NCBI RefSeq assembly: GCF_001544795.2
Contig: NZ_FCOI02000035.1
Coordinates: forward strand, 1-64,000
Direction of reading: 5' to 3'
Source of the DNA: Caballeronia temeraria
GTDB lineage: Bacteria; Pseudomonadota; Gammaproteobacteria; Burkholderiales; Burkholderiaceae
DNA: 64,000 nt
A model generated the notes under the pieces. That model saw only the letters and a program-made list of their open reading frames with translations. It was not told the DNA's origin and ran no database searches. A program made the translations under genes and the position numbers. Numbering within the stretch: position 1 is the first letter of the stretch; every line of letters begins with the position of its first letter. Below, in pieces: positions 1-27,014 of the stretch.

Positions 1-3000
1 AGCGCTTGTTCGAGCAAGCTCGTGAAACGCGCACCGAGGCGGGTGATGGTGATCTCATCGAACAGATCGGTCGCGTAACTGAAGGTGCCGGTCAAGCCTT
101 CCTGGGTATGCGTGAGGCTCAAGGTGAGATCGAACTTGGCGCCGGCTTCGGCTGCGGGCAACAGTTCGAGCGTAAGCCCCGGCAAAGCGAACGCTTGCAT
201 GGGTGCGTTCTGCAACACGAACATCACCTGAAATAGCGGCGTGCGACTGATATCGCGAACCGGCGCGAGCGCTTCGACGAGCTTTTCAAACGGCAAATCC
301 TGATGCGCATACGCGGCAAGCGTCGTATCACGGACTTGCGCGAGCAGCGAACGCAGGGATGGCGAGCCGGAGAGATCGGCACGCAACACGAGCGTATTGA
401 CGAACAAGCCGATGAGCGGTTCGATTTGCGCATGCGTACGATTAGCGATGGGCGAACCGACTGCGACATCGGACTGTCCGGAAAGGCGTGCGAGCAACGT
501 CTGGAACACGGCGAGCAGCAGCATGAAGGGCGTGACGCCTTCCTGTTGAGCAAGTGTGTGCAGGCGCTGGGACAGTTCCGGACTCAACGCAAAGGGCAAC
601 GTCGCGCCTCGCCCGCTGATCTGCGCGGGACGAGGACGATCAGTGGGAAGGTCCAGCGGCGCAAGCTCGGCGAGTTGATTGCGCCAGTATTGCGTCTGAC
701 GTTCCAACTCCGCACCGGCGAGCCAGTCGCGCTGCCACAGCGTGTAGTCGGCGTACTGCACGGCCAGCGGTGCAAGAGCGATCGGTTCGTTACGCAGCGC
801 AGCCGTATAGCAAGCGCCGAGTTCACGCACGAGCACGCCGGTGGACCAGCCATCGGAGATGATGTGATGCATCGTGAAGAGCAGGACGTGCTGATCTTCC
901 GCGAGGCGCAGTAGTTGAGCGCGAAGCAGCGGGCCGTGCTGAAGATCGAAGGGGCGGCTGGCTTCGGCTTGTGCGAGGCGTCGGACTTCGTCGGCTTGCG
1001 CAAGCGTGTCCAACTCGATAAGCGGCAGAGGCAATTCGAGTTCGGCAGCAATGTGCTGCACGGCTTGACCATCGTGTTGAACGAAGGAAGTGCGCAGGCT
1101 TTCATGACGCGCAACGAGTTCATTCAATGCGGCTTGGAAGGCCCGAACATCGAGTGTGCCGTTTAAGCGCAAAGCGATCGGAATGTGATACGTCGATTGT
1201 CCGGGATTCAGTTGTTCGAGGAACCACAGACGTTCCTGCGCAAACGACAGCGGTAGATGCGCGGGACGTTCGATAGCGTGCAGCGCAGGCAGTGCACTGA
1301 CATGACGAGGCGATTCCTCCAGCGCTTCTGCAAGCGATGCAACGCTAGGCGCGTCAAACAGCTTGCGCAGCGGCACTTCGACGGAAAGCGCCTCACGCAA
1401 ACGCGAGACGAGTTGCGTAGCAAGCAGCGAATGCCCCCCGAGGGCAAAGAAGTTATCGAACACACTCACGCGTTCGAGCCCGAGCACATCGGCGAAGCAT
1501 TGCGCAAGCGACGCTTCGAGCGATGAACGCGGCGCGACATAAGCCGCAAGATCCTGCCACTGCGGATCGGGCAATGCACGCCGATCGAGCTTGCCGTTGG
1601 GCGTAAGCGGCAACACATCGAGCACGACGAATGCCGATGGCACCATATAGTCCGGCAGACGCGAATCGAGATATTCGCGCAGGGCACTCGCATCGATTTC
1701 CGCTGCGAGCGTGACATACGCGACGAGTTGCTGATCCTGCGCATCCTGCTGTCGTGCCCGCGCGATGACCACCGCCTCGCGCACCGCCGCATGACTCGCA
1801 AGCTGCGCCTCGATCTCGCCAAGCTCGATGCGGAACCCGCGAATCTTGACCTGATGATCGTTGCGCCCGAAGAACTCGAGGCTGCCATCGGCAAGATAGC
1901 GTCCGAGGTCTCCCGTGCGATAAAGACGCGCGCCGGGCACGAACGGATCGTCGATGAAACGCTCGGCAGTAAGCTCGGGACGATTCAGATATCCGCGCGC
2001 CACACCCGCGCCACCGACATATAACTCGCCCACCGCGCCGACCGGTGCAAGCTGACCTTGCGCATCGAGCAGATACACAGTCAGATCGGGAATACGCACG
2101 CCGATCGGACTGCTGCTCAGCGCACAATCATCGCGGGTCAGCGGCCGATACGTCACGTGGACGGTCGTTTCGGTGATGCCGTACATGTTGACGAGGCGTG
2201 GCTTCTGATCCGAATGCCGCGCGTACCACGGTTCGAGCATCGATGGATTCAGCGCCTCGCCACCGAAGATCACATAGCGCAGCGCATCGGCGTCGTCGCT
2301 GGATTCCTGCGCCTGAATGAGCGCGCGGAATGCGCTGGGCGTCTGATTCAGAACGGTCACGCCCTCTCGCTGAAGCAGGCGCAGGAAGTCGGGTGCGAAG
2401 CGCGCCACATGCTGCGGCACGATCACGAGTTTTCCGCCGAAACGGAGCGCGCCCCACAATTCCCACACTGAGAAATCGAAGGCGAACGAGTGGAACAGGC
2501 ACCAGACATCGCGTTCGTTGAAGCCGAACCAGTCCTGAGTCGCGTCGAAGAGGCGCACGATCTGGGCGTGCTCGATCATCACGCCCTTGGGCTTGCCGGT
2601 CGAACCCGATGTGTAGATGACATAGGCGAGATGAGGCAGCGCGACCGGCGTTTGCGGATCGTCTTGCGAGAATGAGTCATCGAGCGGTGCATCGGGATCG
2701 AGCGCCGTCAGCGCGCCGGTATCGCCCAATGCTTCACGGCCGGCGGCATCGGCGAGCAAGAGACGCGGCGTCGAGTCGGAGAGGATATGGCTCAGGCGTT
2801 CACCGGAATAAGCCGGATCAAGCGGCACATACGCACCGCCCGCCTTCAGGATGGCGAGCAACGCGACCACCATGCCGATGCCGCGCTCCACGCACAGCGC
2901 CACGCGATCTTCCGGATACACACCGAGCGCGATCAGACGATGCGCAAGCCAATTCGCGCGCGCATTGAGCTGCGCATACGTGAGCGATTCGTCTTCGAAG

Positions 3001-6000
3001 AGGAGCGCGATGGCATCGGGCGTGCGTCGAACCTGTTGCTCGAACAATTGATGGATGCACGCATCCGCAGGATAGGAGGCGCGCGTGCCGTTCCATGTCT
3101 TGACCAGCAACTCGCGGATGTCAGGGGGCACCACGTTCAACCGATTCACCGGCGTACGGGGCGCCTGTTCCAGCGCATCGGCGAGGCTCGCAAGCGCTTG
3201 CTCCATGTATCCGCACAGTTGCACGGGCGAGAGGGGCGCAACGGTCTGCGCGGTGAGTTCGAGGCTGTCGCCGTTGTCGTCCACCGAAAGGGTCAGCGGA
3301 TAGTTGGTGCGCTCCTCGGCGCCGAGCAGTTCGATGCCATCGAACGCGCGTTCATCGGCCGAGCCTTGATTGTGGCGATAGTTGAGCAACGCGCTGAAGA
3401 GCGGCGCGGGAGCGGCGACGCCACTGCATCGTTGCGCGAGCGCGAGCGGCGCATGCTGATGTTGCAGCAAAGCTGCGAGACGTTCATGCGTGGTGCGCAC
3501 GCTGTCGACGACCGAGGCATCGTTCACGTCGAGGCGTATCGGCAAAGTATTGATCAGGAGCCCGAGCGCCTGATCGACGCCCGCCTGCATGCGCCCGAGT
3601 AACACGGTGCCGAACACGATGCGTCCATCGGAGTCGAGCGCGCTGCCTGCACTGAGCACGCGCGCCCACGCGAGATGACACAGGCTCGCAAGACTCACGC
3701 CGACGCTGCGAGCCTGAGCGCGCAGACGCGTATCAAGCGATGCGGGCAGTCTTGCGCGCGCTTCGGCGACGGCCGAGCCGTCGTGATGAATGTCGGTGAG
3801 GCCGAAGGGCAGCGTCGGTTCGTTCACGTCGCCGAGCATGTCGCGAAAGAATGATTCATGCGCGTCTTGCGTCGCGCCGAGCCGCGCCTGCGCGACCAGA
3901 TCGCGGAACGGCTGCGCCACACCGAGCGTGTCGGCCCGGCCATCGAGGATCGCGCCGATTTCAGCGTGCATCACTTCCAGCGTCGCATGATCGCCGATCA
4001 GATGATGCCAGTTCAATTGCATCAGCCAGCGTCCGCTTCCCGTTTCGGGAACGATCGCAATCTGCAGCAACGGAGCGCGGGTGAGATCGAGGCGTTGCGT
4101 GCGGGCATCGAAATGCTTCGCCAGCTTTCCGGCGGCGTCGCCGTCCGTGATCCCGATCTCGGTGATGGTCACGGGCGCCTTGCGCCAGACCACTTGCGCG
4201 GGCGTGCTGAGTCCGTCGTGGATGAAGGCGGTGCGCAGGATGTCATGCCGCTCGACGACCTTTTGCAACGCATCGAGCCACGCATCGAGACGGGCGCGGC
4301 TGTCGAACGCGAGTCGCGCGGTTTGCAGATACGGATCGCCCTCCGTGGTCAGCATGTGATGAAACAGAATGCCGTCCTGAAGCGGAGCAAGTGAATAGAT
4401 ATCCTGAATATTCTCGAGCCTGCCGGGAACCTGTTCGACGATGCGATCGATGTCCGTCTGCGTGAGGTCGATGAGCGGCAGCATCGCCGGTGTGAGCGCG
4501 GTGCAATCGGGCGTGATCGCGTTGGGCGGCACGACGATATCGGGCTTCGGCGCGGCCTGCTCGAGCGCGGCGGCGAGCGCGCTGAGCACGGGCGTCGCGA
4601 ACAGATCGCGCACGCTGGCGTGAAGTCCGATGCGTCGCAGGCGCTCGATCAGCGTCACGGCAAGCAGCGAGTGCCCGCCGAGCGCGAAGAAGTTGTCGTG
4701 ACGGCCGACGCGCTCCAGCCCCAGCAACTTGGCCCACAGTCCGGCAAGGGCGCTCTCGGTCGCGCCCTGCGGTGCTTCGAACGGACGCAGCGCGAAGGCA
4801 TCGGCTTGCGGATCGGGCAGCGATCGGCGGTCGAGCTTGCCGCTCGGCGTGAGCGGCAGCGCGTCGAGCGTGACGAAGGCCGACGGCACCATGTAGTCGG
4901 GCAGACGCGACGCGAGATGCTCGCGCAGCGCGCTGGCATCGATATCGGAAAACAGCGTGACATAGGCGACGAGCGGCTGATCTTGCGAACCCTGATGCCG
5001 CGCCCGCGCGATGACCACCGCTTCGCGCACGGCGGGATGAGCGGCGATCTGAGTCTCGATCTCGCCCGGTTCGATGCGGAACCCGCGAATCTTGATCTGA
5101 TGGTCATTGCGGCCAAGAAACTCGATATTGCCGTCGAGATGAAAGCGCGCGAGGTCGCCGGTACGGTAGATGCGCGCACCCGGCACGAACGGGTCGTCGA
5201 GGAAACGCTCGGCGGTGAGCTCGGGCCGGTTCAGATAGCCGCGCGCCACGCCCGCGCCGCCGATATACAGCTCGCCCACGGCGCCGGGAGGCACCACGCG
5301 GCGCAGCGCATCGAGAACATAGGTGCGCGTGTTGGCGAGCGGCTTGCCGATGACGGGCCGCGTCTGCTCGCTCGTGATCTCGGCGACGGTGGCATCGACG
5401 GTGCACTCGGTCGGACCATAGACGTTGAAGGCGCGGATCTGCGCGGCGCGCGCGAGACGGTTCCAGGTCTGCGGCGTGAGCGGTTCGCCGCCCACGAGCA
5501 CCGTCAGCGGCGCCTTCCGTTGTTCGAGCAGGCCGGCGGAGAAGAGCGAGTCGAGCTGCGTCGGCGTGCAGTCGAACACGTCGATGCGCGCCTCGTCGAG
5601 AAAGTCGATCAACGCCATCGCATCGGTGCGCACGTCGGCGGGAACGATGACGAGCCGATGTCCGCCGAGCAGCGCGGCGAGATTCTGCACCGAGGCATCG
5701 AACGCGATGCTCGCGTTCAGCGTGACGCCGGAGTGCGGGGCGCAATGCGCGAACACCGTCGAGTGCAATGCGTGATGCAGATTCAGCACATGACGATGCT
5801 CGACCAGCACGCCCTTCGGCTTGCCGGTCGAACCGGACGTGTAGATCGCGTAGGCGAGATGATGCGAGGCGAGACCGGGCACATGCGGATCGTCCTGCGG
5901 CAGCGTATCGTCGAGCGATACGCCGGGGTCCAGCACGGCGAGCGCGCCCGTGTCGCTCAGGGCTTGTCGGCCGGCCGCATCGGCGACGAGCAGCACGGGC

Positions 6001-7670
6001 GTCGCGTCGCCGAGAATGTAGCTCAGGCGCTCGCCGGGATAAGCCGGATCGAGCGGTACATACGCGCCGCCCGACTTGAGGATCGCGAAGAGCGCGGTGA
6101 TCGCGCCGATGCCGCGCTCCATGCACAACGCCACGCGGTCTTCCGGACGCACGCCCGCCGCGATCACACGATGCGCGAGCCGGTTCGCGCGCGCATTGAG
6201 TTGCGCGAACGTGAGCGACGCGCCGTCGCATTCGAGCGCGACGGCATCGGGCGTGCGTCGAGCCTGCTGCTCCAGAAGCTGATGGATGCACAGATGCTCG
6301 GCATAAGGCGCGGCCGTGTCGTTCCACGATTCGAGCCACGCCTGCCGCTCGGGCAAGACGAGCTCGAACGAATGCAGCGGCGCATCGGGCTGGGCCAGCG
6401 CCTTTTCGAGCAGACGCGTGAAGCGCCGCGCATGGGCATCCACGGCATCGGCGGAGTAGAGCGCTGGATTGCCGTCGAACATCAGTTCGATGCCGAGTTC
6501 ATCGCCTTCGTCATGGATGATGAGCGCGAGATCATCGGGCGTTCCATAGAAGGAGCGATTCGATCCGATCCGGCATCCGGCGAAATCCAGCGCGAGGCTG
6601 TAGTCCGGCATGACGTTCACGGTCGGCCCGAAGAGCGGCCTGTCGGATTCGATGCGTCCCACATCGCGTCGAATGTCCTTCACGCGATAGCGCTGATGGC
6701 GCAAGATCCGGCGACTCTGCCGTGACACCGCGCCGAGCAGATCGATGATGGTCGTGTCCGCATCCAGCGTCGCGCGCAACGGCAGCGCATTGGACATCAT
6801 GCCGGGCACGTTTCTCGCCAGGCGTCCCACGCGGGCCGTGACCGGAAAGCCGAGCACCACTTCGGGCTGACCGCTGAGCCGCGCGACATAGGCCGCCATG
6901 ACCGCGGTGAAGAACTGCGGCCACGTCGCGCCGTGACGCTCCGAGACGTCACGCAGACGCCGGGTCGTTTCCGGTGACAGCCGCATCCGCGCGATCGTCT
7001 GTGTGGAAATCTCAGACGGTATCGGCTCGTGCGCCATGCATTCGGCGAGCAGCACCGGCTCGGCGCAATCGGCCAGATAATCGCGCCAGAACTGCTGATC
7101 GCCTTCGAACGCACGGGACGCGCGATAGGCGTCATCGTCATCGAGCAGGTCGGCGAGGCCGCGCCACGTGCACGGCGGCGGCTCGCGTCCTTCGACGAGC
7201 GCCGAATAGACAGCCGCGAGGCGCTGCGTGAAAAGAAAGAACGAATAGCCGTCGAACGCGATGTGATGAATCCGCTGGAACAGGAAGAAGCGCGTGGGGC
7301 CGGCCTGAAAAAGCTGGCCGTCGAAGAGCGGATAGGCATTGAGATCGATGGCGCTGGCGAGCGCGGCCTCCACTTCGCGATCGACCGCTTCGACGGGATC
7401 GGGCGCATCGCTGACATCGACGACACGAAGCGTGAAATCGTCCATTGCATCGGGCAGCACCTGATGCGGCATGCCGTCCTCGATGACGATGCGCACCTGC
7501 ATCGCTTCTGCCTCGCCGACCGTGCGCCGCAGCGCCGCTTGCAGCGCCTCGACATCGAGCGGTCCGATGATCTCCGTCAGCTGCGCGAGGTTGAAGCGCG
7601 GATCGCGCAGATCGAGTTGCTGGCGAAAGAAGATGCCCGATTGAGCGGGCGCGAGGGGAAGGCTGAACAT
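1..7670 (-). CDS. Nonribosomal peptide synthetase, C-A(Gln)-T-E/C-A(Thr)-T-C..., 3' end outside window
   Basis: Multimodular NRPS read from an ATG at 7670; 2556 codons are visible and the frame is still open at base 1. Domain order with approximate residues: an EntF/DhbF-like condensation domain (HHIAFDG near 135), adenylation domain 1 (YTSGSTG near 608), carrier 1 (GGHSLLA near 998), condensation domain 2 (near 1100-1500), adenylation domain 2 (YTSGSTG near 1687), carrier 2 (GGHSLLA near 2078) and condensation domain 3 (HHIISDG near 2268, incomplete). Aligning by hand to GrsA gives code DAQDLGVVDK for A1, the lichenysin-type Gln code, and DFWNIGMVHK for A2, the canonical Thr code. Condensation domain 2 has the elongated His motif HHMLTTEGD plus HHLIGDH, as in dual epimerisation/condensation domains, so Gln is probably delivered as the D form. 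The N-terminal C domain needs an upstream acyl or peptidyl donor. The start has no strong ribosome site; the cupin gene ends 85 bases upstream. Confidence 0.96.
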   Translation of the reverse strand, partial: MFSLPLAPAQSGIFFRQQLDLRDPRFNLAQLTEIIGPLDVEALQAALRRTVGEAEAMQVRIVIEDGMPHQVLPDAMDDFTLRVVDVSDAPDPVEAVDREVEAALASAIDLNAYPLFDGQLFQAGPTRFFLFQRIHHIAFDGYSFFLFTQRLAAVYSALVEGREPPPCTWRGLADLLDDDDAYRASRAFEGDQQFWRDYLADCAEPVLLAECMAHEPIPSEISTQTIARMRLSPETTRRLRDVSERHGATWPQFFTAVMAAYVARLSGQPEVVLGFPVTARVGRLARNVPGMMSNALPLRATLDADTTIIDLLGAVSRQSRRILRHQRYRVKDIRRDVGRIESDRPLFGPTVNVMPDYSLALDFAGCRIGSNRSFYGTPDDLALIIHDEGDELGIELMFDGNPALYSADAVDAHARRFTRLLEKALAQPDAPLHSFELVLPERQAWLESWNDTAAPYAEHLCIHQLLEQQARRTPDAVALECDGASLTFAQLNARANRLAHRVIAAGVRPEDRVALCMERGIGAITALFAILKSGGAYVPLDPAYPGERLSYILGDATPVLLVADAAGRQALSDTGALAVLDPGVSLDDTLPQDDPHVPGLASHHLAYAIYTSGSTGKPKGVLVEHRHVLNLHHALHSTVFAHCAPHSGVTLNASIAFDASVQNLAALLGGHRLVIVPADVRTDAMALIDFLDEARIDVFDCTPTQLDSLFSAGLLEQRKAPLTVLVGGEPLTPQTWNRLARAAQIRAFNVYGPTECTVDATVAEITSEQTRPVIGKPLANTRTYVLDALRRVVPPGAVGELYIGGAGVARGYLNRPELTAERFLDDPFVPGARIYRTGDLARFHLDGNIEFLGRNDHQIKIRGFRIEPGEIETQIAAHPAVREAVVIARARHQGSQDQPLVAYVTLFSDIDASALREHLASRLPDYMVPSAFVTLDALPLTPSGKLDRRSLPDPQADAFALRPFEAPQGATESALAGLWAKLLGLERVGRHDNFFALGGHSLLAVTLIERLRRIGLHASVRDLFATPVLSALAAALEQAAPKPDIVVPPNAITPDCTALTPAMLPLIDLTQTDIDRIVEQVPGRLENIQDIYSLAPLQDGILFHHMLTTEGDPYLQTARLAFDSRARLDAWLDALQKVVERHDILRTAFIHDGLSTPAQVVWRKAPVTITEIGITDGDAAGKLAKHFDARTQRLDLTRAPLLQIAIVPETGSGRWLMQLNWHHLIGDHATLEVMHAEIGAILDGRADTLGVAQPFRDLVAQARLGATQDAHESFFRDMLGDVNEPTLPFGLTDIHHDGSAVAEARARLPASLDTRLRAQARSVGVSLASLCHLAWARVLSAGSALDSDGRIVFGTVLLGRMQAGVDQALGLLINTLPIRLDVNDASVVDSVRTTHERLAALLQHQHAPLALAQRCSGVAAPAPLFSALLNYRHNQGSADERAFDGIELLGAEERTNYPLTLSVDDNGDSLELTAQTVAPLSPVQLCGYMEQALASLADALEQAPRTPVNRLNVVPPDIRELLVKTWNGTRASYPADACIHQLFEQQVRRTPDAIALLFEDESLTYAQLNARANWLAHRLIALGVYPEDRVALCVERGIGMVVALLAILKAGGAYVPLDPAYSGERLSHILSDSTPRLLLADAAGREALGDTGALTALDPDAPLDDSFSQDDPQTPVALPHLAYVIYTSGSTGKPKGVMIEHAQIVRLFDATQDWFGFNERDVWCLFHSFAFDFSVWELWGALRFGGKLVIVPQHVARFAPDFLRLLQREGVTVLNQTPSAFRALIQAQESSDDADALRYVIFGGEALNPSMLEPWYARHSDQKPRLVNMYGITETTVHVTYRPLTRDDCALSSSPIGVRIPDLTVYLLDAQGQLAPVGAVGELYVGGAGVARGYLNRPELTAERFIDDPFVPGARLYRTGDLGRYLADGSLEFFGRNDHQVKIRGFRIELGEIEAQLASHAAVREAVVIARARQQDAQDQQLVAYVTLAAEIDASALREYLDSRLPDYMVPSAFVVLDVLPLTPNGKLDRRALPDPQWQDLAAYVAPRSSLEASLAQCFADVLGLERVSVFDNFFALGGHSLLATQLVSRLREALSVEVPLRKLFDAPSVASLAEALEESPRHVSALPALHAIERPAHLPLSFAQERLWFLEQLNPGQSTYHIPIALRLNGTLDVRAFQAALNELVARHESLRTSFVQHDGQAVQHIAAELELPLPLIELDTLAQADEVRRLAQAEASRPFDLQHGPLLRAQLLRLAEDQHVLLFTMHHIISDGWSTGVLVRELGACYTAALRNEPIALAPLAVQYADYTLWQRDWLAGAELERQTQYWRNQLAELAPLDLPTDRPRPAQISGRGATLPFALSPELSQRLHTLAQQEGVTPFMLLLAVFQTLLARLSGQSDVAVGSPIANRTHAQIEPLIGLFVNTLVLRADLSGSPSLRSLLAQVRDTTLAAYAHQDLPFEKLVEALAPVRDISRTPLFQVMFVLQNAPMQAFALPGLTLELLPAAEAGAKFDLTLSLTHTQEGLTGTFSYATDLFDEITITRLGARFTSLLEQA

Positions 7671-8652: not shown

Positions 8653-8673
8653 GTGCCACTCCCAGATCGAGGT

Positions 8674-8859
8674 TCAGTAGGACCGCAGATCGATCCAATG
8701 CGCTTCGATATAGTCCAGACATTGCTTGCGCGGACTATCCGAAAGCTCCACTTCCCAACCAGCCGGGACGTCGAGATGAGCGGGCCAGAGCGAGCGCTGC
8801 CGCGATTCATTGATCAGGACACGAAACGTGCCGTGTTCATCGTCGAATGGGTTGTCCAT
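8674..8859 (-). CDS. MbtH-like protein (first copy)
   Basis: Short MbtH-family protein of 61 residues. It shows the family pattern NPFDDEHGTFRVLIN, SLWP, a PAGWEV core and the C-terminal CLDYIEAHWIDLR. MbtH proteins bind NRPS adenylation domains and are often needed for their folding or activity. I start it at ATG 8859 because GGGAG sits 8-9 bases upstream; an upstream in-frame ATG at 8883 would add eight residues that no homologue I know carries. It is followed after 21 bases by the cupin gene and then by the second NRPS, so it probably serves that enzyme. A second copy lies at 10738-10941. Confidence 0.95.
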   Translation of the reverse strand: MDNPFDDEHGTFRVLINESRQRSLWPAHLDVPAGWEVELSDSPRKQCLDYIEAHWIDLRSY

Positions 8860-9081
8860 GCTGTTGCTCCCTTGTTCATGCATCGGGTTGCAACGAAATA
8901 TAGGCGCCGGGAGTTAGAACTGAATTAGACGTCGCGCGACAGGAGCGGCCATGCCGGAGAAGCGCGGCCCGAGGCGCGACGAGCGCCGTGCGCAGAAGAT
9001 GAGGAATGCCTCGCTATTACATATCGGCTTCGATTCCGGATCAAGGGAAATCGAACGCCGCCGCGTCGTGTCACGAACCGG

Positions 9082-10716: not shown

Positions 10717-10737
10717 GGATGCGTGTCGTTCCCTGGC

Positions 10738-10941
10738 TTAAGGCGCTTCGCGGCGCAGACTCGCGGGCCGTATGTCGGTCCAGTTTTCGTTGATGTAGTC
10801 GATGCATGCCTGCCGCGCCGCCACGCCGAACACGCTCGTCCATCCAGCGGGCACGGCGGCGAAAGACGGCCACAGGGAATGCTGCCCTTCATCGTTGCGC
10901 AAAACGAAAAACTCGCCGGTCTCGTCATCGAAAGGATTCAT
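10738..10941 (-). CDS. MbtH-like protein (second copy)
   Basis: A 67-residue MbtH-family protein: starts directly at [16 protein letters not shown], then [14 protein letters not shown] and C-terminal [18 protein letters not shown] at 10941 has GGAGAG upstream. It lies 13 bases after the HpaB-like gene and 21 bases before the ABC exporter, so it is co-transcribed with the 4414-residue NRPS. Sequence differs clearly from the copy at 8674-8859 (for example [12 protein letters not shown] against GTFRVLINESRQ), so this is not a recent tandem duplication. One copy per NRPS block suggests partner specificity, though MbtH proteins often cross-complement. Confidence 0.95.
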
Positions 10942-18400: not shown

Positions 18401-21400
18401 CGTAAATCTCGCCGCTCACGCCCGCGCCGCAGCGGCGCAGGAAGGCATCGAGCACATGGATCTGGCTGTTCCACACGGGACGTCCGATCGGCGGCGCGAC
18501 CGGGCCGCCGAGGTCGTCGCTCATCGTCGCGCATACGGTGACTTCCGTCGGTCCATAGGCGTTGACGAGGCGCCGTCCGTTCGACCAGCGCGCCGCTGTG
18601 TCGGCCGATATCGCCTCGCCCGCGGTGACGATCGTGCAGGCGGCGGGGATCGTGGCCGGGTCCATCGCCGCGAGCAGCGCGGGCGGCAGCGTGACGCAGG
18701 TGATCTCCCGTTCGCGGATCAGCCCGGCGAGCCGCTCGGCCGACATCAGCGACGCATCCGCGAGGACGAGGCGCGCGCCGTGCAGCAGCGTGACGAGGAC
18801 TTCGGAGACGGCGGCATCGAACGACAGCGACGCGAACTGCAAGACGCGCGATGCCGCCGTGATGCCGAAGCGTTCCGCCTGCGCCCCGACCAAGCTTGCG
18901 ATCCCGGCGCGCGTCACCACGACGCCCTTCGGCTTGCCGCTCGACCCCGATGTATAGACGACATACGCAGGATGACCGGGCGCGACGGCACGCTCGACGG
19001 CATGCGTCGGCCAGCCCGCGAGCGGCGGCAGGACGCTGAGCGTGAGCGCGGGCTGCGCATCGGCGAGCATCGCGTCGATGCGTTCGCGCGGATAGTGCGG
19101 ATCGACCGGCAGATACGCACCGCCGCTCTTCAGCACGCCGAGCATCGCCACGATGACGTCGGGCGTGCGGTTCATCGTCAGGGCGACGATACGTTCCGCT
19201 CCGATGCCCTGCGCGACGAGGCAATGCGCCAGCGCGTTGGAGCGCGCGTCGAGCTCGCGGTAGGTCAACTGTTGCGCGTCCTGCATCACCGCGATGGCGT
19301 GCGGCGCGCGCGCGGCCTGCGCACTGAAGCGCGCCGCGACATCGTCTTCGCCGACAGGGCGCGCGGTCGCATTCCAGCGATCGAGCTCGTCGCGTTCGGC
19401 GCGCGAAAGCAGATCGATGCGCCCGACGAGATCATCGGGTTGCGATGCCATCGACCGGAGAATCTGCATGAGCGTCGCGAGCAGGCGCTGTGCGTCGTGA
19501 CCGGACACCCGGTCCGCACGATGATCGATCCGCAGCTCCAGCTCCGTTCCCGGCGTCACCATCAGGCTGACCGGATAGTGCGTCGTGTCGTTGACGGTCG
19601 TTGCCGCCAGCGTCACGCCGTCGATCTCGCATGGCGTGCGCGCGGCGGGATAATTCTCGACCACCACGAGCGTGTCGAAAAGTTCGCCGTGGCCGGCGCG
19701 CGCCTGCACCTCCGTCAAGCCGATATGCTGATGCGGCAGCAGCGCGGACTGGTCTCGCTGGATGCGTTCGAGCAGACGCGCGACTGTCTCGCCGGCATGC
19801 AGCGTCGCGCGCAGCGGCAGCGTGTTGATGAACAGGCCGACGCGCCGCTCGACATCCTGAAGCTCGGCCGGCCGTCCGGCTGCCGTGACGCCGAACGCGA
19901 CATCGTTCCGGCCGGTCCGATAGCCGAGCAGCATCGCCCAGGCGCCTTGCGCGAACGTTGCCAGTGTCAGCCCGCGATGGCGCGCGCAGTCCAGCAGGCA
20001 CGCCGTCGTTTCCGCGTCCAGCCTGCCCGTGACGGACGCCTGCCGCGCGAAAGGCGCGCCGGGGTCCGCGTTCGCGACGAGACGCGTCGGCCCGTCCAGC
20101 CCGGCGAGCGCGGCTTCCCACGCGTTACGCGCGCGTTCGCGGTCCTGCTTCGCGAGCCAGACGAACTGTTCGCGCAACGGCGGCGCGTCGCCGAGCGCGT
20201 CGCCGGCGTAGGCCTGCATCAGTTCGGACACGATGACGGGCATCGACCAGCCATCGATCAGAAGATGATGCAGGCTCAATACCAGGCGATGCTCGCCGTG
20301 GCCCAGCCGGAGCAGCGCGGCGCGCAGCAACGGCGCCGAAGTCACATCGAAACGATGCTCGCGGTCCTCGACGAGCCACGCCGCGAGCGCTTCGTGCGGC
20401 TGCGCGGCGTCCGCGAGATCGACGTCGCGCCAGCGCGTCTGCACGGCGCGGCGCAGCGCCTGCACGACGCGCCCGTCGACGGCATGGAAGCTGACCCGCA
20501 AGGCTTCGTGCCGCTGCACCAGCCTGTCGACGGCCGCGCGCAGCCGGTCCGGCTCAAGCTGGCCCTCGAACGCCAGCACCAGTTGCACGATGTACGGATC
20601 GGGACCGGTGGCATCGAACGTGGCATGGAAGAACAGCCCTTCCTGCAGTGGCGCGAGCGGCAGAATCTCGGCCGCGCCGGGATTCCCGGTGCGCAGCGTC
20701 GCCGTGACGGACGCGGGCAAGTCCGGCCACGATGCATCGTCCGAACGCGGCTCGACGGTCAGATCGCGCGCGACGGCAGCGAGCGCAGCCGGTGTCTTTT
20801 CGCGGAAGACATCCGCCGGACTCAGCACGAGTCCCGCCTTGCGCGCACGGCTGACGAGCTGGATCGACAGGATGCTGTCGCCGCCCAGCGCGAAGAAGCC
20901 GTCGTCCGCACCGACGGACGCGAGGCCGAGCACGTCGGCGAACAGCGTCGTCAGCGCTCTTTCGCGTGGCGTCGCGGGCGCGCGTGTCGCCGATGTCCGC
21001 GCCTGAAAGGGCGGCAGCGCCTTGCGGTCGAGCTTGCCGTTGCTCGTGATCGGAAGTCTGTCGAGCCTGACGAAGCCCGCCGGCACCATGTAATCGGGCA
21101 GGCGCTGTCTGAGCGCGGCGAGCACGCGGCGCTCGTCGTAGTTTTCCTCCGCGACGACATAGGCGACGAGACGGCTGCCCGATGCGCCATCGTGCTGCGC
21201 GAGCACCGCGCAGGCGCGGATCGCGGGCTGCTCCGACAGCACGGTTTCGATTTCGCCGGGTTCGATGCGCAGTCCGCGCACCTTCACCTGCTGATCCGCG
21301 CGGCCGGCGAACTCCAGTTCGCCCCGTTCGTTCCAGCGCGCGAAATCGCCCGTGCGATACATGCGCGCGCCGGGACCGCCGTAAGGATCGGCGACGAAGC

Positions 21401-24400
21401 GCTCGGCCGTGATGCCCGTCTGTCCGACATAGCCGCGCGCGAGGACGTCGCCCGCGATGTAGAGATCGCCCGCGACGCCGATCGGGCAGAGGTTCAGGAA
21501 ATCGTCGAGCACGCGAATCCGGGCCGATGCGCGCGGCGCGCCGATCGGGACCGGATGCCGCACGCGTCGCGCGAGTGTCGCCGGATAGCTCGTGACGAAC
21601 ACGCTGGTCTCGGTCGGTCCGTAGCAGTTCAGGAGCGTGATGTCCGGAAAGCGCCGCAAGACTCGCTGGAAGCTCGCGACCGAGGCCGTGTCGCCGCCGG
21701 TGAGGATCGTGCGCAAGCCGCTCAGGCATTCGAGATCTTCCGTGACGAGAAGATTGAAAAGACTCGTCGTCAGAAGGAGATTGTTCGCGCCGTGCCCGGC
21801 GATTTCGCGGCGCAGATCCGCGGGCGTCAACTGTTCGCACGAAGCGACGACGAGTTCATCGCCGCGCAATAACGCGCTCCAGATTTCGTAGCTGCTGGCG
21901 TCGAACGCAAAGGACGACTGGAACAGCACGCGTTGCGGCGGAAGGTCCAGCAGATCCATCGCCATGTCGACGATGCCCCGGTGCGTGATCTCGATGCCCT
22001 TGGGCACGCCGGACGAGCCGGACGTGTACATGACGTTGATCAGCGATTCCGGCGCGATGTCGATCGCGACGGGACCGTCGTCGCCTTCGTCGAGCAGCGC
22101 GGCGTCGATGCGCAGCGCGGCGACGGACCCGTAGCCGCCAGCGGCGCTCGCGTCGTGCAGCACGAGCGCGGTCCGCGTGTCGTCCAGCATGCGTTGCCGG
22201 CGCTCCGGCGGAAGGCCGCGATAGAGCGGCAGGTAGCATCCGCCGGCCTTCACGATGGCGAGTGTCGCGACGATCAGTTCCAGCGAACGCGTCATGTCGA
22301 CGGCAACGCGCGTCTCGCGCGCCACGCCGCGCGCCGCGAGCCGATGCGCCAGCCGGTTCGAGATCCGGTCGAGTTGTCCGTACGTCAGCGCGCGCGCGCC
22401 GTGACGCAACGCGATGGCGTGCGGCTGTCGCGCGACGATCTCTGCGAATCGCCGGGGAATAGACTGCGCTTCCCGGAGCTGCGTTTGCGATGGCGTGCCG
22501 AACGCGAGAAGCGCCGCGCGCTCCTGCGGCGCGAAAACGCCGTGATGCCCGATGCCCGCGTCGGGATCGGCGATGGCCTGATCGAGCAGGCCTTCGAACG
22601 CGGCGGCCATGCGGCGCGCCGTGTCCGGCTCGAACAGCTCGGCCGCGAATTCGAGATTGCCTTCGATGGCGCCGTAGCCATCGTCGTCGCTGCCGTGCGC
22701 GACGAGTTCGAAGGCGAGATCGAACTTCGCCGCCGCATTGCCGATGGCTCGCGGGCGCGTTGTCAGGTCTTGCAGCGAGAGTCGCGCGTCATCGTCGTAT
22801 TCGAGCGACAGCGCGACCTGGAACAACGGATGACGCGCGACGCTGCGCTCGGGATTGAGCATCTCCACGATGCTCGCGAACGGCACGTCCTGATTGGCGT
22901 AGGCGGCGAGATCGGCCTCACGCACGCGCGCGAGCAGTTCGCGAAAGCCGGGATTGCCGCTCGCATCGACGCGCAGCACCAGACTGTTCACGAAGTAGCC
23001 GACGAGGTCTTCGAGCTGCGCGTCGAAGCGGCCCTCGCCCGGCGTGCCGATGACCACGTCCGTGCCCGCGCCGAAGCGCCGCAATACCGCGACGAGCGCG
23101 CTTTGCACGACCATGAAGAGCGTGGCGTGTTGAGCCTGCGCGAAATGCGCCGCTCGACGATGCAATCGCGAACCGATGCTGAACGCGATCCGCTCGGCGC
23201 GGCCCAGCGCTTCGGCCGGCCGCGCGCGCACGCGTGGCAGCGGCAGTTCGTCCGGCAGATCGGCCAGCACGCTGCGCCAGTGGGCGAGTTGACGTTGCGC
23301 GAGACTGCCGGTGTCGCCGGGAGAGCCGAGCAGCGCGCGCTGCCAGTTCGCGAAATCGGCGTATTGCACCGGCAGCGGTGGCAGATCGGGCCGCTTGCCG
23401 CCACGCCGCGCCGCATAGGCCGACGACAGATCGCGCAGAAACGGAACGAGCGACGCGCCATCGAAAGCGATGTGATGAAAGCTGAAAATCAGCACGGCGC
23501 GATCGCTTGCACAGCGCAGAAGGCGCGCTCTGAATGGAATGCGGCTTTCGAGATCGAACGGCGCTTCGACCTCGGCGGCGATGTGGCGATCGAGTTCGCC
23601 GGGCGTTGCATCGGTCACGCCGAGCAGTTCGTCGAGCATGCTGTCGCTCGCGGGCAGGACATGCTGATACGGTCCCTCGTCGGCATGACGAAAGAGCGTG
23701 CGCAGGCTTTCGTGACGGGTGACGACATCGCGAAGCGCGAGACGCAGCGCGTGCGCATCGCACGGACCGCGGAGGTCGAAGGCGTAGGGCAGGTTGTAGG
23801 CGGCGGCCGCGCTCGCCTCTTTCCCCAGCCGCGCCAGAAACCACATGCCCTGCTGACCCGCCGACAGGCGCACGCGTTCACGCCGCGCCTGTGCCGACAA
23901 GCGCGCGCGGCGCATTCCGTGCGCGTCGAGCAGCGCCGCGAGCCTCTCGACGGTCGGCGCGCGGAACACATCGCTGACACTTGCATCGATTTGCAGAACG
24001 GCGCGTATCCGGTTCGCGAGCTGCGCGGCCAGCAACGAATGGCCGCCCGACGCGAAGAAATCATCGTGGATGCCGACAGCATCCCGCCGCAGCACCTCGG
24101 CAAACAGATGCGCGAGTTGGATCTCGACAGGCGTGCGGCCCTCGGGACCGCGAGCGGCATCGCGTCTCGCGAAGGGCAAGGCGGCGCGATCGAGCTTGCC
24201 GTTGGGCAGGAGCGGCAGCGCAGGCAGCGTGACGAAGGACGCCGGAAGCATGTAGTCCGGCATCCGGCGCGCAAGTTCGCTACGCAGCGCGGCTTCGTCG
24301 TAGCCGTCCGCGGGCACCAGAAAGGCGACGAGTGTGTCTTCTTCCAGAACGACGGCCGCCGCCGCGACATGCCGATGCGCGAGCAGCGCCGCTTCGATCT

Positions 24401-25712
24401 CGCCCGGCTCGACGCGAAAGCCGCGTATCTTGAGCTGTCGGTCGGCGCGGCCGAGATAGTCGATGTGGCCATCGCTGCGCCGCCGCGCGCGGTCTCCCGT
24501 GCGATACATCCGCGAACCGGACGGACCGTGCGGATCGGCCAGAAAGCGCTCCGCCGTGTGGCCGGGTTGCCCGATATAGCCTCTCGCCAGCCCCGCACCC
24601 GCGAGATAGAGTTCGCCCGCCTCGCCAACGGCGCAGGGCCGCAGGCGTTCATCGAGCACATAAGCCGATGTGTTCCAGATCTCGTGACCGATCGGCGCGC
24701 CGTTTGCCGTCGTGGCCACGGCGTGCAGGCTGTCGCCGCTCGCCTCCGAGGAGCCGTAGAAATTGACGAGCCGCGCATCCGGCACGCATGCCGCAAAGCG
24801 TTGCGCGAGCGCGGGCGGCAGCGTTTCGCCGCTGCATATCCAGAGCGGACAGCGGTTCAGCGCGGCGTGATCGGGCTGATCGAGCAGGGCGGCGAGCAGG
24901 CTCGGAACGACGGTGATGCGGCCGATATTCAGACGCGCGATCTCGGCCGCCAGCAGCGCCGGGTCGCGCGCGGCTTCGGCATCGGCGAGCGCGACGGTGG
25001 CGCCGGCAATCAGCGGCGCGAGCAACTCGGTAGCGCCGTCGATGAAGCTCATCGAACTTTTGGCGAGCACCGTCTCGCCAGGCGCGAACGCGTAGATGCC
25101 GGCCACCCAGCACAGGCGGTTGACGAGGCCGGCATGCAGGCCGACCACGCCCTTGGGGCGTCCCGTCGAGCCGGATGTATAGATGACATAGGCCGCATCG
25201 AGCGGTGCCGGGCGCGCGCCGGTCGCTGTCTTTCGGACGACGTGATCGCTGCCGGGCAGATCGACCCTGTGCACGATCGGTATCGTCCGCACGGTTTCGG
25301 CCAGTTCGGCCGCGAGCCGCGTATGCGTCAACACGCACGATGGCCGCGCATCGCACGACATGAACGCGAGCCGCTCCGCCGGATACGCGGGATCGAGCGG
25401 CAGATACGCCGCGCCGCTCCTGAGCACGCCGAGAATGGCCACGACCATGTCGAACGAACGGGGCAGCGCGATCGCGACGATGTCGCCCGGCCCGAGTCCA
25501 TGCGACACGAGCAGATCGCCCAGCCGGTTCGCGCGCAGGTTCAGTTCGGCGTAGCTCATCTGCCGCGTGCCTTGCAACAGCGCCGGAGCCGCCGGCGTGC
25601 GCGCGGCCTGGCGCTCCAGCAGGTCGTACACGGTGAGCGTCGTCAGCTCGTCGGCGGACCCGCGCGCCGCGCCCTGGCCGCCGGTCCCGATCTGATCGGT
25701 CAGCGCGTCCAT
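12468..25712 (-). CDS. Four-module nonribosomal peptide synthetase A-T-C-A-T-C-A-T-E-C-A-T-TE
   Basis: A 4414-residue NRPS. Approximate landmarks: A1 YTSGSTG 176, T1 GGHSLLAAQ 556, C HHIAFDG 745, A2 YTSGSSG 1229, T2 GGDSILS 1609, C HHLLIDG 1814, A3 YTSGSSG 2252, T3 GGDSILS 2622, epimerisation domain (HHLVVDGVS 2810, then TVGWFTSVHPLRI and GIGYGLLRYLN), C HHLLLDG 3285, A4 YTSGSTG 3725, T4 GGHSLRAAR 4103, thioesterase GWSFGG 4236 with a C-terminal EHDHMM His. Hand-read pocket codes are A1 IDTTISFGDK (Asp shifted from position 235 to 236, as in beta-alanine-type pockets), A2 DAYLLGCVFK (unassigned, hydrophobic), A3 DASTVAAVCK (Tyr/Phe type) and A4 DILQLGVIWK (one change from the Gly code). It starts with an A domain after only about 26 residues, so module 1 is an initiation module. 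ATG 25712 lies 3 bases after the preceding stop. Confidence 0.97.
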   Translation of the reverse strand: MDALTDQIGTGGQGAARGSADELTTLTVYDLLERQAARTPAAPALLQGTRQMSYAELNLRANRLGDLLVSHGLGPGDIVAIALPRSFDMVVAILGVLRSGAAYLPLDPAYPAERLAFMSCDARPSCVLTHTRLAAELAETVRTIPIVHRVDLPGSDHVVRKTATGARPAPLDAAYVIYTSGSTGRPKGVVGLHAGLVNRLCWVAGIYAFAPGETVLAKSSMSFIDGATELLAPLIAGATVALADAEAARDPALLAAEIARLNIGRITVVPSLLAALLDQPDHAALNRCPLWICSGETLPPALAQRFAACVPDARLVNFYGSSEASGDSLHAVATTANGAPIGHEIWNTSAYVLDERLRPCAVGEAGELYLAGAGLARGYIGQPGHTAERFLADPHGPSGSRMYRTGDRARRRSDGHIDYLGRADRQLKIRGFRVEPGEIEAALLAHRHVAAAAVVLEEDTLVAFLVPADGYDEAALRSELARRMPDYMLPASFVTLPALPLLPNGKLDRAALPFARRDAARGPEGRTPVEIQLAHLFAEVLRRDAVGIHDDFFASGGHSLLAAQLANRIRAVLQIDASVSDVFRAPTVERLAALLDAHGMRRARLSAQARRERVRLSAGQQGMWFLARLGKEASAAAAYNLPYAFDLRGPCDAHALRLALRDVVTRHESLRTLFRHADEGPYQHVLPASDSMLDELLGVTDATPGELDRHIAAEVEAPFDLESRIPFRARLLRCASDRAVLIFSFHHIAFDGASLVPFLRDLSSAYAARRGGKRPDLPPLPVQYADFANWQRALLGSPGDTGSLAQRQLAHWRSVLADLPDELPLPRVRARPAEALGRAERIAFSIGSRLHRRAAHFAQAQHATLFMVVQSALVAVLRRFGAGTDVVIGTPGEGRFDAQLEDLVGYFVNSLVLRVDASGNPGFRELLARVREADLAAYANQDVPFASIVEMLNPERSVARHPLFQVALSLEYDDDARLSLQDLTTRPRAIGNAAAKFDLAFELVAHGSDDDGYGAIEGNLEFAAELFEPDTARRMAAAFEGLLDQAIADPDAGIGHHGVFAPQERAALLAFGTPSQTQLREAQSIPRRFAEIVARQPHAIALRHGARALTYGQLDRISNRLAHRLAARGVARETRVAVDMTRSLELIVATLAIVKAGGCYLPLYRGLPPERRQRMLDDTRTALVLHDASAAGGYGSVAALRIDAALLDEGDDGPVAIDIAPESLINVMYTSGSSGVPKGIEITHRGIVDMAMDLLDLPPQRVLFQSSFAFDASSYEIWSALLRGDELVVASCEQLTPADLRREIAGHGANNLLLTTSLFNLLVTEDLECLSGLRTILTGGDTASVASFQRVLRRFPDITLLNCYGPTETSVFVTSYPATLARRVRHPVPIGAPRASARIRVLDDFLNLCPIGVAGDLYIAGDVLARGYVGQTGITAERFVADPYGGPGARMYRTGDFARWNERGELEFAGRADQQVKVRGLRIEPGEIETVLSEQPAIRACAVLAQHDGASGSRLVAYVVAEENYDERRVLAALRQRLPDYMVPAGFVRLDRLPITSNGKLDRKALPPFQARTSATRAPATPRERALTTLFADVLGLASVGADDGFFALGGDSILSIQLVSRARKAGLVLSPADVFREKTPAALAAVARDLTVEPRSDDASWPDLPASVTATLRTGNPGAAEILPLAPLQEGLFFHATFDATGPDPYIVQLVLAFEGQLEPDRLRAAVDRLVQRHEALRVSFHAVDGRVVQALRRAVQTRWRDVDLADAAQPHEALAAWLVEDREHRFDVTSAPLLRAALLRLGHGEHRLVLSLHHLLIDGWSMPVIVSELMQAYAGDALGDAPPLREQFVWLAKQDRERARNAWEAALAGLDGPTRLVANADPGAPFARQASVTGRLDAETTACLLDCARHRGLTLATFAQGAWAMLLGYRTGRNDVAFGVTAAGRPAELQDVERRVGLFINTLPLRATLHAGETVARLLERIQRDQSALLPHQHIGLTEVQARAGHGELFDTLVVVENYPAARTPCEIDGVTLAATTVNDTTHYPVSLMVTPGTELELRIDHRADRVSGHDAQRLLATLMQILRSMASQPDDLVGRIDLLSRAERDELDRWNATARPVGEDDVAARFSAQAARAPHAIAVMQDAQQLTYRELDARSNALAHCLVAQGIGAERIVALTMNRTPDVIVAMLGVLKSGGAYLPVDPHYPRERIDAMLADAQPALTLSVLPPLAGWPTHAVERAVAPGHPAYVVYTSGSSGKPKGVVVTRAGIASLVGAQAERFGITAASRVLQFASLSFDAAVSEVLVTLLHGARLVLADASLMSAERLAGLIREREITCVTLPPALLAAMDPATIPAACTIVTAGEAISADTAARWSNGRRLVNAYGPTEVTVCATMSDDLGGPVAPPIGRPVWNSQIHVLDAFLRRCGAGVSGEIYVGGAGLARGYVARPDLSAERFVANPFGAAGKRLYRTGDLGRWRADGQLEFLGRADQQIKLRGFRIEPGEIEALLMQDDGVRSCAVAVRDRQLVAYVVPAPAFDAPSLRAAVARRLPEYMVPSSFVVLDALPLTPNGKLDRKALPAPSRDVSARRVPASEREALIARLFAEVLERDGVQPDDSFFALGGDSILSIRFVSRARGAGLDLSPAHVFRHKTPAGLARIAGVLADRARASTSTSDDETGRVPATPIMRWLSARDGAIDAFSQSMRVVLPHDTRHARLVQALQAVIARHALLRARFIDAELDVPAHDADAETPLQRIDAHDWTRADVERHAALHQQASERSLALREGRVLRAVWFDRGAAGGELLLTIHHLVVDGVSWRILLDDLAQAYDLAARGEPPVLPPVPTSFRRWARHLHEEAHATRRVAELDRWRWIVSACDSPLGTRPLARTDTLATARRVSWQLDAATTARLLGSVPAMFRGGVNDVLLAAYALAVAGWRGGAGPVLLDLERHGREPGESGLDLSRTVGWFTSVHPLRIDFDDGFNPAAMLRSGPALAALVKRVKEALRALPDGGIGYGLLRYLNARTAPHLQGARAHLSFNYLGRFGASGGAWSAIGGLSLEGGDDADAPLPHAIALDAQVIDGDAGPRLHAHWTFAGGLFEETSIRDLARRWSDALHAIARLESGGLTPSDIGARLTQADIDAIEAATPGAQDILPLLPLQEGLLFHSLYDASASDPYIAQISLTLEGQVDAARLRAAADALLARHDTLRVGIRDVSGRPVQVIAGPVSAPWREADVSNAQDVGEALSALLASERERRFDLERAPLLRFMLVRTGPRRHRLVMSNHHLLLDGWSMPVVISDLMSLYAGETLDAAFPLRDQHAWIERQDKAAARAAWRDALRGVDGPTRLTRAEPGSQTTDVRTVRIALPEPLSATLAALAQRHETTVSTILQGCWAVLLARLTSREDVVFGITVSGRPAELPQIERRVGLFINTLPLRVVLDPRERWTELFRRMQAMQADRLPHQHLGLTDIIEQSGQSELFDSLLIVENYPMDALRPRSAADELTIAAIDGYDRTHYPVTLVAIPGARMALRLDCRISQFDANAAQALLDRFVRVLEQVAAAPQGAVIARDLLAPDEAQRMSAWNRTTRALAGEDVAVSFARQARRSPDAIAVEQGDVRWTYADVERRSDRFAQALIARGIGPDDLVALTLPRTPDIVVAMLGVLKSGAAFLPVDPAYPEARIAAMLADARPAWVVDRLPMPDDCNPGSAAAPACRAHHLAYVIYTSGSTGTPKGVAVSRVGLVNLLAAMQDRMGMKPGDRLLAVTTLGFDIACLELLAPLLAGATIVLAASDDVKDPRRLARLAASSRANVMQATPTLWDALLHEIETMPERPRFTLALAGGETVSARLAQRLLAHARRVIDVYGPTETTIWSTSAERAERQASPGIGRPLWNTRVHVLDRWLGRCPPGTPGDLYIAGRGLARGYVGRPGLTAERFIADPYGAPGERMYRTGDLARWSADGELEFLGRSDHQVKIRGFRVETGEAEAALRAQASVRDCAVALVDGQLAAYLVAGADFDETGVRAALARSLPDYMVPASFTTLARLPVTLNGKLDRAALPAPVRTPRRSRAPRDAREAELARLFAEALERDSVSIDDNFFALGGHSLRAARLVNRIRDTLGVDPGIRALFEAPTVALLGERLQRRDASDALAPLLPLQHASAAAPVFCVHPGYGLSWCYATLIPHLGVDVPLYGLQSPMLSGEAPPPSLAGLADRYLAHIRTIQPRGPYRLMGWSFGGLVAHQIATRLEAQGESVARVVMLDSNLPQRARHETLAPATHLGNVLAMIGYPFSETAPGALRWDRVMDHMRAIESPLAHVPQSALPALVEVTACHASLAASFRPAPLGAPVTFMRAAVTPSADSSLRAWRASARGALDIIDVPYEHDHMMRADALAVIGPIIRDLFANRVRHSE

Positions 25713-25715
25713 CGG

Positions 25716-27014
25716 TCAGTTATCCCGATTATTCGATGCCACCAATCCGCGCGCACGCAGTTCGGGAATGACGGCGCGCCCAAATTCCTCGAAGGTGCCC
25801 GGGAAATGCGTCGGCGTGATGACGAAGCCGTCGCAGCAGTCCTCGAACAACGCCTGAAGCTGATCGGCGACGTCCGCCGCGGTGCCGACAAGACGTGGCG
25901 TGCCCGTGCTGCCCGACAGCGCGATGGCGGCGTCATCGATACGAACGTCCGGTTGCGAATCGAGCAGACTGGCGAGCCACGCCAGCGTGCCGCCGGCATC
26001 GACCGCGGGCCGCTTGTGCTGCGTTTCCAGAATCGGCTGCAGGCGCGCGTCGCCGGAAACGCCGGACAGGTCGAGGCCCAGCATCGCGGCGAGATAGCTG
26101 CGCGCCGCATCCGGTGCGACGAGCGAGTCGAGATGCGCGGTGCGAGCAGCGGCGATCTCGCGGGTCTCGCCGATCACCGGTTGCACCGCCGCCATCAGGC
26201 GTATGTCGTGCGGCGAGCGTCCCATGCGCACGGCGCGCGCACGGACGTCGTCGCGCAGTTCGCGCATGGCGGCGGGCTCGCTCTGTATCGCGAAGATGAC
26301 TTCAGCCCAACGCGCCGCGAAATCGCGGCCTCGCGGCGACACGCCGGCGGCCATCAGTGTCGGGGCGCCACGGTACGGCAGCGTCAGCGGGCCGCGTATG
26401 TCGAAGTGACGGCCCTTGTGATCGATCTGCCGGATCTTGTCGGCGCGGGCATAGACGCCGGACTTCTTGTCGGCAATAAGCGCGCCTTCATCCCACGAAG
26501 ACCAGAGATCGTGACAGACCTTAAGCGTTTCTTCGGCCCGATCGTAGAGGTCGCGGTGATCGAGCGACGTCAGATGCGCGAAGTTGATGCCATTGCTAGG
26601 CCCCGCCGATGTCACGATATTCCATGCCATGCGCCCGCGACTGAAATGATTCAGTGTACTAAGCGTTCTGGCGAGATGATAAGGCTCCATATAGGTCGTG
26701 GATAAGGTGACCGTGAACCTCAGCCGGTGCGTGACGCCGATCATCGGCGAGACGAGCAGCGCGGGATCGTGACGGATGGCGCCGCTCGCGCCGCGGCTCG
26801 TCATCGTTTCCCATGCGCCGTCTTCGCCCATCGGAACGGCGAGCGATTCCGGCACGAACGCATAGTCGTAACCATAACGATCGAGGCTGCGCGCGAGATT
26901 TTCATAGAGCTCGCGATCGCAGAAATCGGTTTCGCTATAGGGATGACGCCACATGGCGCCGAAGTGGCTGCCGGGCACGAGAATGTAGGCCGAAAAGAGC
27001 ATGCGCCGGCGCAT
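25716..27014 (-). CDS. Luciferase-like FMNH2-dependent monooxygenase (NtaA/SnaA/DszA family), first gene of NRPS operon
   Basis: About 432 residues of the bacterial-luciferase-like fold, NtaA/SnaA/SoxA/DszA branch. Family features visible are an N-terminal GSHFGAMWRHP segment, TVTLSTTYMEPYHLAR, FSRGRMAWNIVTS, and SPRGRDFAARWAEVIF near the middle. These enzymes use reduced FMN from a partner reductase for N-hydroxylation, sulfone cleavage or related oxygenations. It precedes the large NRPS by 3 bases and is the promoter-proximal gene, so it probably makes or modifies a building block. Start is uncertain: GTG 27017 and ATG 27014 are adjacent and share an upstream GGAG; a later ATG at 27002 is also possible. 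The substrate cannot be read from sequence. Confidence 0.9.
   Translation of the reverse strand: MRRRMLFSAYILVPGSHFGAMWRHPYSETDFCDRELYENLARSLDRYGYDYAFVPESLAVPMGEDGAWETMTSRGASGAIRHDPALLVSPMIGVTHRLRFTVTLSTTYMEPYHLARTLSTLNHFSRGRMAWNIVTSAGPSNGINFAHLTSLDHRDLYDRAEETLKVCHDLWSSWDEGALIADKKSGVYARADKIRQIDHKGRHFDIRGPLTLPYRGAPTLMAAGVSPRGRDFAARWAEVIFAIQSEPAAMRELRDDVRARAVRMGRSPHDIRLMAAVQPVIGETREIAAARTAHLDSLVAPDAARSYLAAMLGLDLSGVSGDARLQPILETQHKRPAVDAGGTLAWLASLLDSQPDVRIDDAAIALSGSTGTPRLVGTAADVADQLQALFEDCCDGFVITPTHFPGTFEEFGRAVIPELRARGLVASNNRDN

Follow-up and report, generated by a model that had tools for sequence, protein, structure and literature searches.

SgcC, from the biosynthesis of C-1027, is an HpaB-type hydroxylase that acts on carrier-bound beta-tyrosine. 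SgcC and such enediyne-pathway enzymes have been reported to need carrier-protein-tethered substrates (available part of PMC6165268), and the structure 4OO2 was used as a template in the accessible part of PMC6393456, with the SgcE6/SgcC structure paper cited beside it. In Burkholderia sp. YI23, a six-monomer lipopeptide synthetase with a starter condensation (C) domain and a thioesterase (TE) is assigned to chromosome 3 in the sections of Esmaeel et al. 2016 (PMC4906002) available to us. Here we describe the nonribosomal peptide synthetase (NRPS) genes at the left end of contig NZ_FCOI02000035.1 (C35) of Caballeronia temeraria, whose genome assembly comprises 129 contigs and 8,325,519 bases. 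The window, i.e. the whole stretch of DNA that was analysed, covers positions 1–64,000 of this contig, and its base 1 is the first base of the contig. A preliminary description had presented these genes as a single cluster, while our analysis shows that the block is two separate clusters lying head to tail. Cluster 1 (9082–27017, minus strand) consists of a luciferase-like monooxygenase (LLM), the synthetase NRPS1, an HpaB-type hydroxylase, an MbtH-like protein and an exporter. Cluster 2 (below 8883, minus strand) consists of another MbtH-like protein, a cupin and the synthetase NRPS2, which runs off the contig; since the window and the contig share their first base, NRPS2 is truncated by the contig end and not by the window edge. 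Profile searches recovered all of the previously named genes, each on the minus strand and close to the coordinates first given, and the gene and domain content confirms that this is a real NRPS locus.

The intergenic distances in cluster 1 are 3, −8, 13 and 21 nt, followed by 198 nt between the exporter and the second MbtH gene (8884–9081, minus strand), and by 21 and 85 nt within cluster 2. The tight spacing of the block first described as operon-like runs through cluster 1 and stops at the 198-nt gap, which we regard as the border because of this change in spacing and because the clusters lie apart in other genomes (designated by G numbers). Clusters 1 and 2 adjoin in five of the eight carriers of cluster 1 (our own genome, G006, G011, G016 and G029), are separated by about 22 kb in G007, and fall on separate contigs in G004 and G021; in these two, no cluster-2 genes were found beyond the exporter within about 36 kb and 33 kb, respectively. 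Because of this separation in other Caballeronia we reject the single cluster, so that the four tailoring functions and the two MbtH proteins are divided between two assembly lines. The split also corrects the product prediction, as the cupin and the second MbtH-like protein go with NRPS2. Out of 58 Caballeronia genomes, 8 have LLM orthologues and 11 have cupin orthologues, three of the latter (G031, G208 and G017) being without cluster 1. A third, bimodular synthetase (NRPS3) is found at at least 76% identity in 9 of the 58, the raw tally of 11 including weaker matches to NRPS2 itself. In G016, G007 and G021 it lies upstream of the LLM gene in divergent orientation; in our own genome, G006 and G011 its place is downstream of cluster 2, and G004, G029 and G031 have it on other contigs. 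The carrier sets are nested, with every one of the eight cluster-1 carriers also having cluster 2 and NRPS3.

The explanation which we consider best, with moderate confidence, is that the two clusters are independent, cluster 1 making a tetrapeptide and cluster 2 a separate N-capped peptide. Cluster 1 is self-contained, NRPS1 having its own TE, MbtH-like protein and exporter. Two observations weigh against this. A search for sigma-70-like sites at the border (8600–9300) found none, so that a single transcript is possible; and co-occurrence with cluster 1 is strong for both cluster 2 (Fisher p 8.6e-8) and NRPS3 (4.7e-9) when kinship is ignored, which could indicate joint function, or may be a clade effect. 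A composite pathway, in which NRPS1, NRPS2 and NRPS3 would cooperate on one product or on a co-acting mixture, would be in line with the shared strand, the gap of only 198 nt and the presence of all three synthetases in 8 of 8 genomes. We nevertheless find it improbable, as each of the three synthetases terminates in a TE, there is an exporter on each side, and the clusters occupy different contigs in two genomes, with cluster 2 occurring alone in three. Moreover, the one non-Caballeronia relative that was found, from Microvirga brassicacearum CDVBN77, belongs to a genome with three condensation domains in total, all in its NRPS1 homologue.

NRPS1 (12468–25712, minus strand, 4414 amino acids) has four modules arranged as A-T-C-A-T-C-A-T-E-C-A-T-TE (A, adenylation; T, thiolation; E, epimerisation). 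With four A, four condensation-type and four T domains and one TE, it is a modular NRPS, carrying A, T and C domains in modules and a terminal TE. The specificity codes on this strand are IDTTISFGDK for A1 (24576–25619), DAYLLGCVFK for A2 (21429–22445; hydrophobic residue), DASTVAAVCK for A3 (18372–19328) and DILQLGVIWK for A4 (13929–14909), the last two of which we take to be codes for Tyr and Gly, respectively. The stretch following the Tyr module (16347–17621, minus strand) is an E domain, with the motif HHLVVDGVSWRI and clustering with other E domains in the tree. The hand-read codes of the preliminary description hold for all four A domains of NRPS1 as well as for DAQDLGVVDK and DFWNIGMVHK of NRPS2, and the D-configuration it had given to Tyr is supported by this E domain. 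The code of A1 has an Asp at position 236 in place of 235, and another at 331. Asp235 is the usual clamp for the alpha-amino group in A domains, and the Asp236/Asp331 pattern is one that we liken to the presumed beta-Ala code VDWVISLADK. From its code, A1 probably loads a non-alpha, beta-amino acid. Neither of the two strings was found in the open-access literature searched, and the accessible parts of the kasichelin literature on beta-amino-acid codes gave no lead on the A1 substrate. A1-type codes also occur in internal modules of plasmid NRPSs from Methylobacterium, Rhizobium and Roseibium, which makes a beta starter deduced from the code less certain.

The codes were read in seven of the eight carriers (our own genome, G004, G006, G007, G011, G016 and G021; G029 was left out). 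Those of A2 and A3 are invariant in all seven, that of A1 is the same in six (IDTTISYGDK in G016) and that of A4 in five, with one residue changed in G007 and G021 (DILQLGVVWK). A point which sits poorly with the simplest reading of NRPS1 is that the C domain preceding module 3 falls among C domains that follow an E domain, yet module 2 has none, so that residue 2 may not be L. The clade in question contains 15 sequences, including some with no preceding E domain seen, and its support of 92/82 is below the level starred by the tree tool. In the pathway that we propose, module 1, which is without a C domain, would load an amino acid that is not of the alpha kind and is probably beta, while module 2 would add a hydrophobic residue, module 3 would add Tyr and then epimerise it, and module 4 would add Gly, after which the TE would release the tetrapeptide in linear or cyclic form. 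Ring hydroxylation of the Tyr by the HpaB-type enzyme, together with a flavin reductase from elsewhere, would yield D-DOPA, a second oxidation at an unassigned place would be performed by the LLM enzyme, and the TIGR01194 transporter would export the product. The gene content, domain order, codes and separability are read from the sequences, and the substrates, the site of hydroxylation, the mode of release and the role of the LLM enzyme are inferred.

The hydroxylase (10955–12475, minus strand) scores 282.2 and 203.8 bits against Pfam HpaB_N and HpaB (cut-offs 35 and 25), qualifying as an HpaB-type FADH2-dependent aromatic hydroxylase, but only 676.6 bits against TIGR02310, the 4-hydroxyphenylacetate 3-monooxygenase equivalog (cut-off 885.2). 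It is HpaB-like and is not filed as HpaB; its Microvirga homologue is likewise below the TIGR02310 cut-off (696.9 bits). Its top-scoring solved relative is 4oo2, at 599.2 bits, which the reference list of PMC6393456 identifies as the SgcC structure. This match to 4oo2/SgcC, together with the carrier-tethered substrates reported for such enzymes, favours a reading in which the enzyme would hydroxylate Tyr, and by analogy carrier-bound Tyr is the likely form hydroxylated. This is weakened by the small lead of 4oo2 over the catabolic-type HpaB chains (594.7, 592.0 and 591.9 bits), and by the lack of a flavin reductase among the cluster genes scanned, the genome not having been searched for one. 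Next to the hydroxylase are the MbtH-like protein of cluster 1 (10738–10941, minus strand; PF03621, 93 bits, cut-off 27) and the PvdE/SyrD-type cyclic-peptide export ABC transporter (9082–10716, minus strand; TIGR01194, 346 bits, cut-off 286.2). The position of the hydroxylase gene adjoining the Tyr module and the type of exporter would also suit a catecholate metallophore, in which the catechol of D-DOPA binds metal and the PvdE-type transporter exports the compound. This seems unlikely to us, as a single catechol per tetrapeptide makes a weak chelator, and among the 28 window proteins scanned (not every open reading frame, ORF) there was no TonB receptor, periplasmic binder or siderophore ferric reductase. 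TonB receptor and uptake genes of the ornibactin and malleobactin kind were also absent from 10 proteins scanned, again not every ORF, on contig C20.

The LLM enzyme (25716–27017, minus strand; Pfam Bac_luciferase) is FMN-dependent and belongs to the NtaA/DmoA subfamily, scoring 376.2 bits against TIGR03860 (cut-off 279.7). By NTA monooxygenase, N-carboxymethyl groups are released as glyoxylate. As the final module of NRPS1 is read as Gly, an enzyme of this subfamily could conceivably oxidise the C-terminal Gly at its alpha-carbon and cleave this residue off, leaving a peptide amide. However, the subfamily also includes sulphur, alkane and riboflavin oxygenases, the closest solved chain is DszA (5tlc, E 1.6e-86), and in Microvirga there would be no C-terminal Gly if the doubtful Gly-Tyr order described below is real, which makes such a cleavage a poor candidate. 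Its most specific form, a family of [beta-amino acid]-[D or achiral hydrophobic]-D-DOPA-Gly peptides whose terminal Gly is oxidised by a stand-alone NtaA-type oxygenase to release the peptide amide, is very improbable; to our knowledge, it would be distinct from the amidating routes known.

Cluster 1 has a narrow distribution. Close LLM orthologues are present in 4 of 299 evenly drawn family genomes, all of them Caballeronia, and among 398 family genomes A1 has matches of at least 78% only in the eight carriers, the other listed matches being at 51% or less. Among records of the plasmid collection, matches above 60% identity came from Caballeronia sp. NK8 alone, for A1 (1 of 1777 records) as well as for LLM (1 of 1176). 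Of 50 HpaB loci in the GTDB 220 collection, six are from Caballeronia (92–94% identity) and one from Microvirga (75%), with the rest at 50–64%. Among the 50, those seven were the loci in which the fetched stretch had NRPS1-like sequence, by a scan that detects close relatives only. The Microvirga locus (NZ_VCMV01000035.1, loci L107 and L035) has the LLM, NRPS, HpaB, MbtH and exporter genes as in cluster 1, at identities of 59% (LLM and exporter), 62% (MbtH) and 75% (HpaB). Its NRPS runs across both ends of a single 103,920-base contig, an arrangement suggesting that the contig is a circle. Like NRPS1, the enzyme opens with a C-less module whose A domain is of the IDTT type, and its further domains include A domains for Tyr and Gly, an E and a TE, but the A2 code is DAYFWGAMFK (hydrophobic), and modules 3 and 4 read Gly then Tyr (Gly-E-Tyr) instead of Tyr-Gly. 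This order is unreliable and possibly an assembly artefact, because the two A segments are flanked by the same exact repeats of 54 bp, with a 10-N gap at one of them, which makes the assembly ambiguous in this stretch (L107:16259–16828 and L035:1–560); the idea that the modules for Tyr and Gly changed places in evolution between the two genera was considered and rejected as unsafe on the same grounds. A further reservation is that the Microvirga A1 and A3 codes differ slightly between two readings, one of which came from a fuller alignment. Whichever module order holds, HpaB accompanies a Tyr module in Microvirga, and its retention with such an NRPS supports Tyr as the putative HpaB substrate.

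The possibility that the product of cluster 1 is already known under another name appears small. No open-access paper was recognised as describing it, which is weak evidence of novelty as most subscription papers were outside the search, and the accessible part of the Microvirga genome paper calls the two NRPS clusters of that genome undescribed (PMC6780248). The available parts of work on the palmerolide LLM, bolagladins, legonmycin-type NRPSs, solanimycin and Burkholderia cluster surveys gave no lead either. We conclude that cluster 1 is a real orphan tetrapeptide cluster, worth isolating though ordinary in kind. If the proposed pathway is right, it would be a compact five-gene cluster shared by eight species-level Caballeronia genomes and an alphaproteobacterium, making an unreported peptide in which an unusual starter is combined with D-DOPA and with a second oxidation by a flavin enzyme. 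NK8 and the glathei strains are cultured starting points for its study.

Cluster 2 begins with its MbtH-like protein (8674–8883, minus strand; PF03621, 83.7 bits) and a Cupin_8/JmjC-like oxygenase (7756–8652, minus strand; Pfam Cupin_8, 62.5 bits, cut-off 27.4). The cupin motif WHYHTTDE is invariant in 11 aligned orthologues; its spacing relative to the HxD motif of FIH is off by one residue, and the metal ligands are unclear. The window holds the first 2555 codons of NRPS2 (1–7670, minus strand), arranged as a putative starter-type C domain followed by A (Gln) and T, a dual-type C domain followed by A (Thr) and T, and a last C domain before the contig end, with the codes DAQDLGVVDK and DFWNIGMVHK being, by our assignment, those for Gln and Thr. 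Three A domains of NRPS2 are assembled in our own genome, two on C35 and one on C87. Because C87 overlaps C20 by 77 exact bases, the last module is read as Gly followed by the TE on C20, so that NRPS2 is a modular NRPS with C, A and T domains in the window and a TE outside it. In the tree, the C domain that follows the Gln module falls among dual C/E domains, in agreement with the D-Gln of the preliminary description. In NK8, whose complete locus lies at about 230–290 kb of NZ_AP024325.1, NRPS2 is a single protein of 8729 amino acids, with codes read in the order Gln, Thr, DSALIAEVWK, DSKDLGVVDK, DLTKVGHVGK, Gly, DLYNNALTYK and Gly, and with dual-type C domains ahead of modules 2, 6 and 8 according to the tree. 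NRPS2 of G007 reads Gln-Thr-Asp-Gly before its contig ends (residue names for both are likewise our assignments). There are eight modules in G011 and G208, and six in G006 and G017, in which the last two are missing. Length thus shifts by whole modules across species, and NK8 carries repeated, almost identical C domains; judged from these sequences, NRPS2 presents a natural case of module gain or loss. Beyond NRPS2, C20 (L009:3297–12243) carries a second TIGR01194 exporter and NRPS3, which has the code DVAQVGAVCK and a Thr-type code, and ends in a TE. The first C domains of NRPS2 and NRPS3 are sisters forming their own clade, in a tree without a characterised starter C domain. Cluster 2 would be expected to make a separate N-capped peptide beginning with D-Gln-Thr.

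Upstream of the LLM gene is a possible sigma-70-type promoter (27139–27166, minus strand; TTGACA, 16 nt, AACAAT), a weak candidate with 10 of 12 consensus bases, one being found against a shuffle mean of 0.3. The selected ORFs of the following region (27191–60451) look unrelated to the clusters, and include DUF6072, Band 7, a DAO oxidoreductase, LysR, enoyl-CoA hydratase, MFS transporters, an AraC regulator, hydantoinase A/B and a CoA transferase. Long open frames on the plus strand opposite NRPS1 and its neighbour (12549–21872, 3107 amino acids; 21933–26705, 1590 amino acids) are probably a by-product of the high G+C content of the coding sequence.

Compared with known systems, the cluster 1 hydroxylase resembles SgcC, its top solved relative and an enzyme that also works in an NRPS pathway, but SgcC has a clustered reductase, SgcE6, with no counterpart seen in cluster 1, and leads the catabolic-type HpaB chains by a few bits only. 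By domain description, NRPS1 may be compared with the ‘630-2979’ AT-CATECAT cluster of pseudomallei-group Burkholderia (PMC4906002, Table 1), which has the same A-T start without a C domain and one internal E domain, but three modules on two proteins where NRPS1 has four on one. Cluster 2, for its part, invites comparison with the YI23 lipopeptide synthetase, which may be the same cluster; Burkholderia sp. YI23 is a Caballeronia. The six modules of NRPS2 in two genomes recall the six monomers given for the YI23 synthetase in number, and, beside the starter-C and dual C/E lipopeptide synthetases of Burkholderia (PMC4906002), NRPS2 has an N-terminal C domain of a distinct type, dual C/E domains by their grouping, and a TE. 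It differs from them in having one TE found instead of tandem TEs, an adjacent cupin and exporter, and, in two genomes, eight modules.

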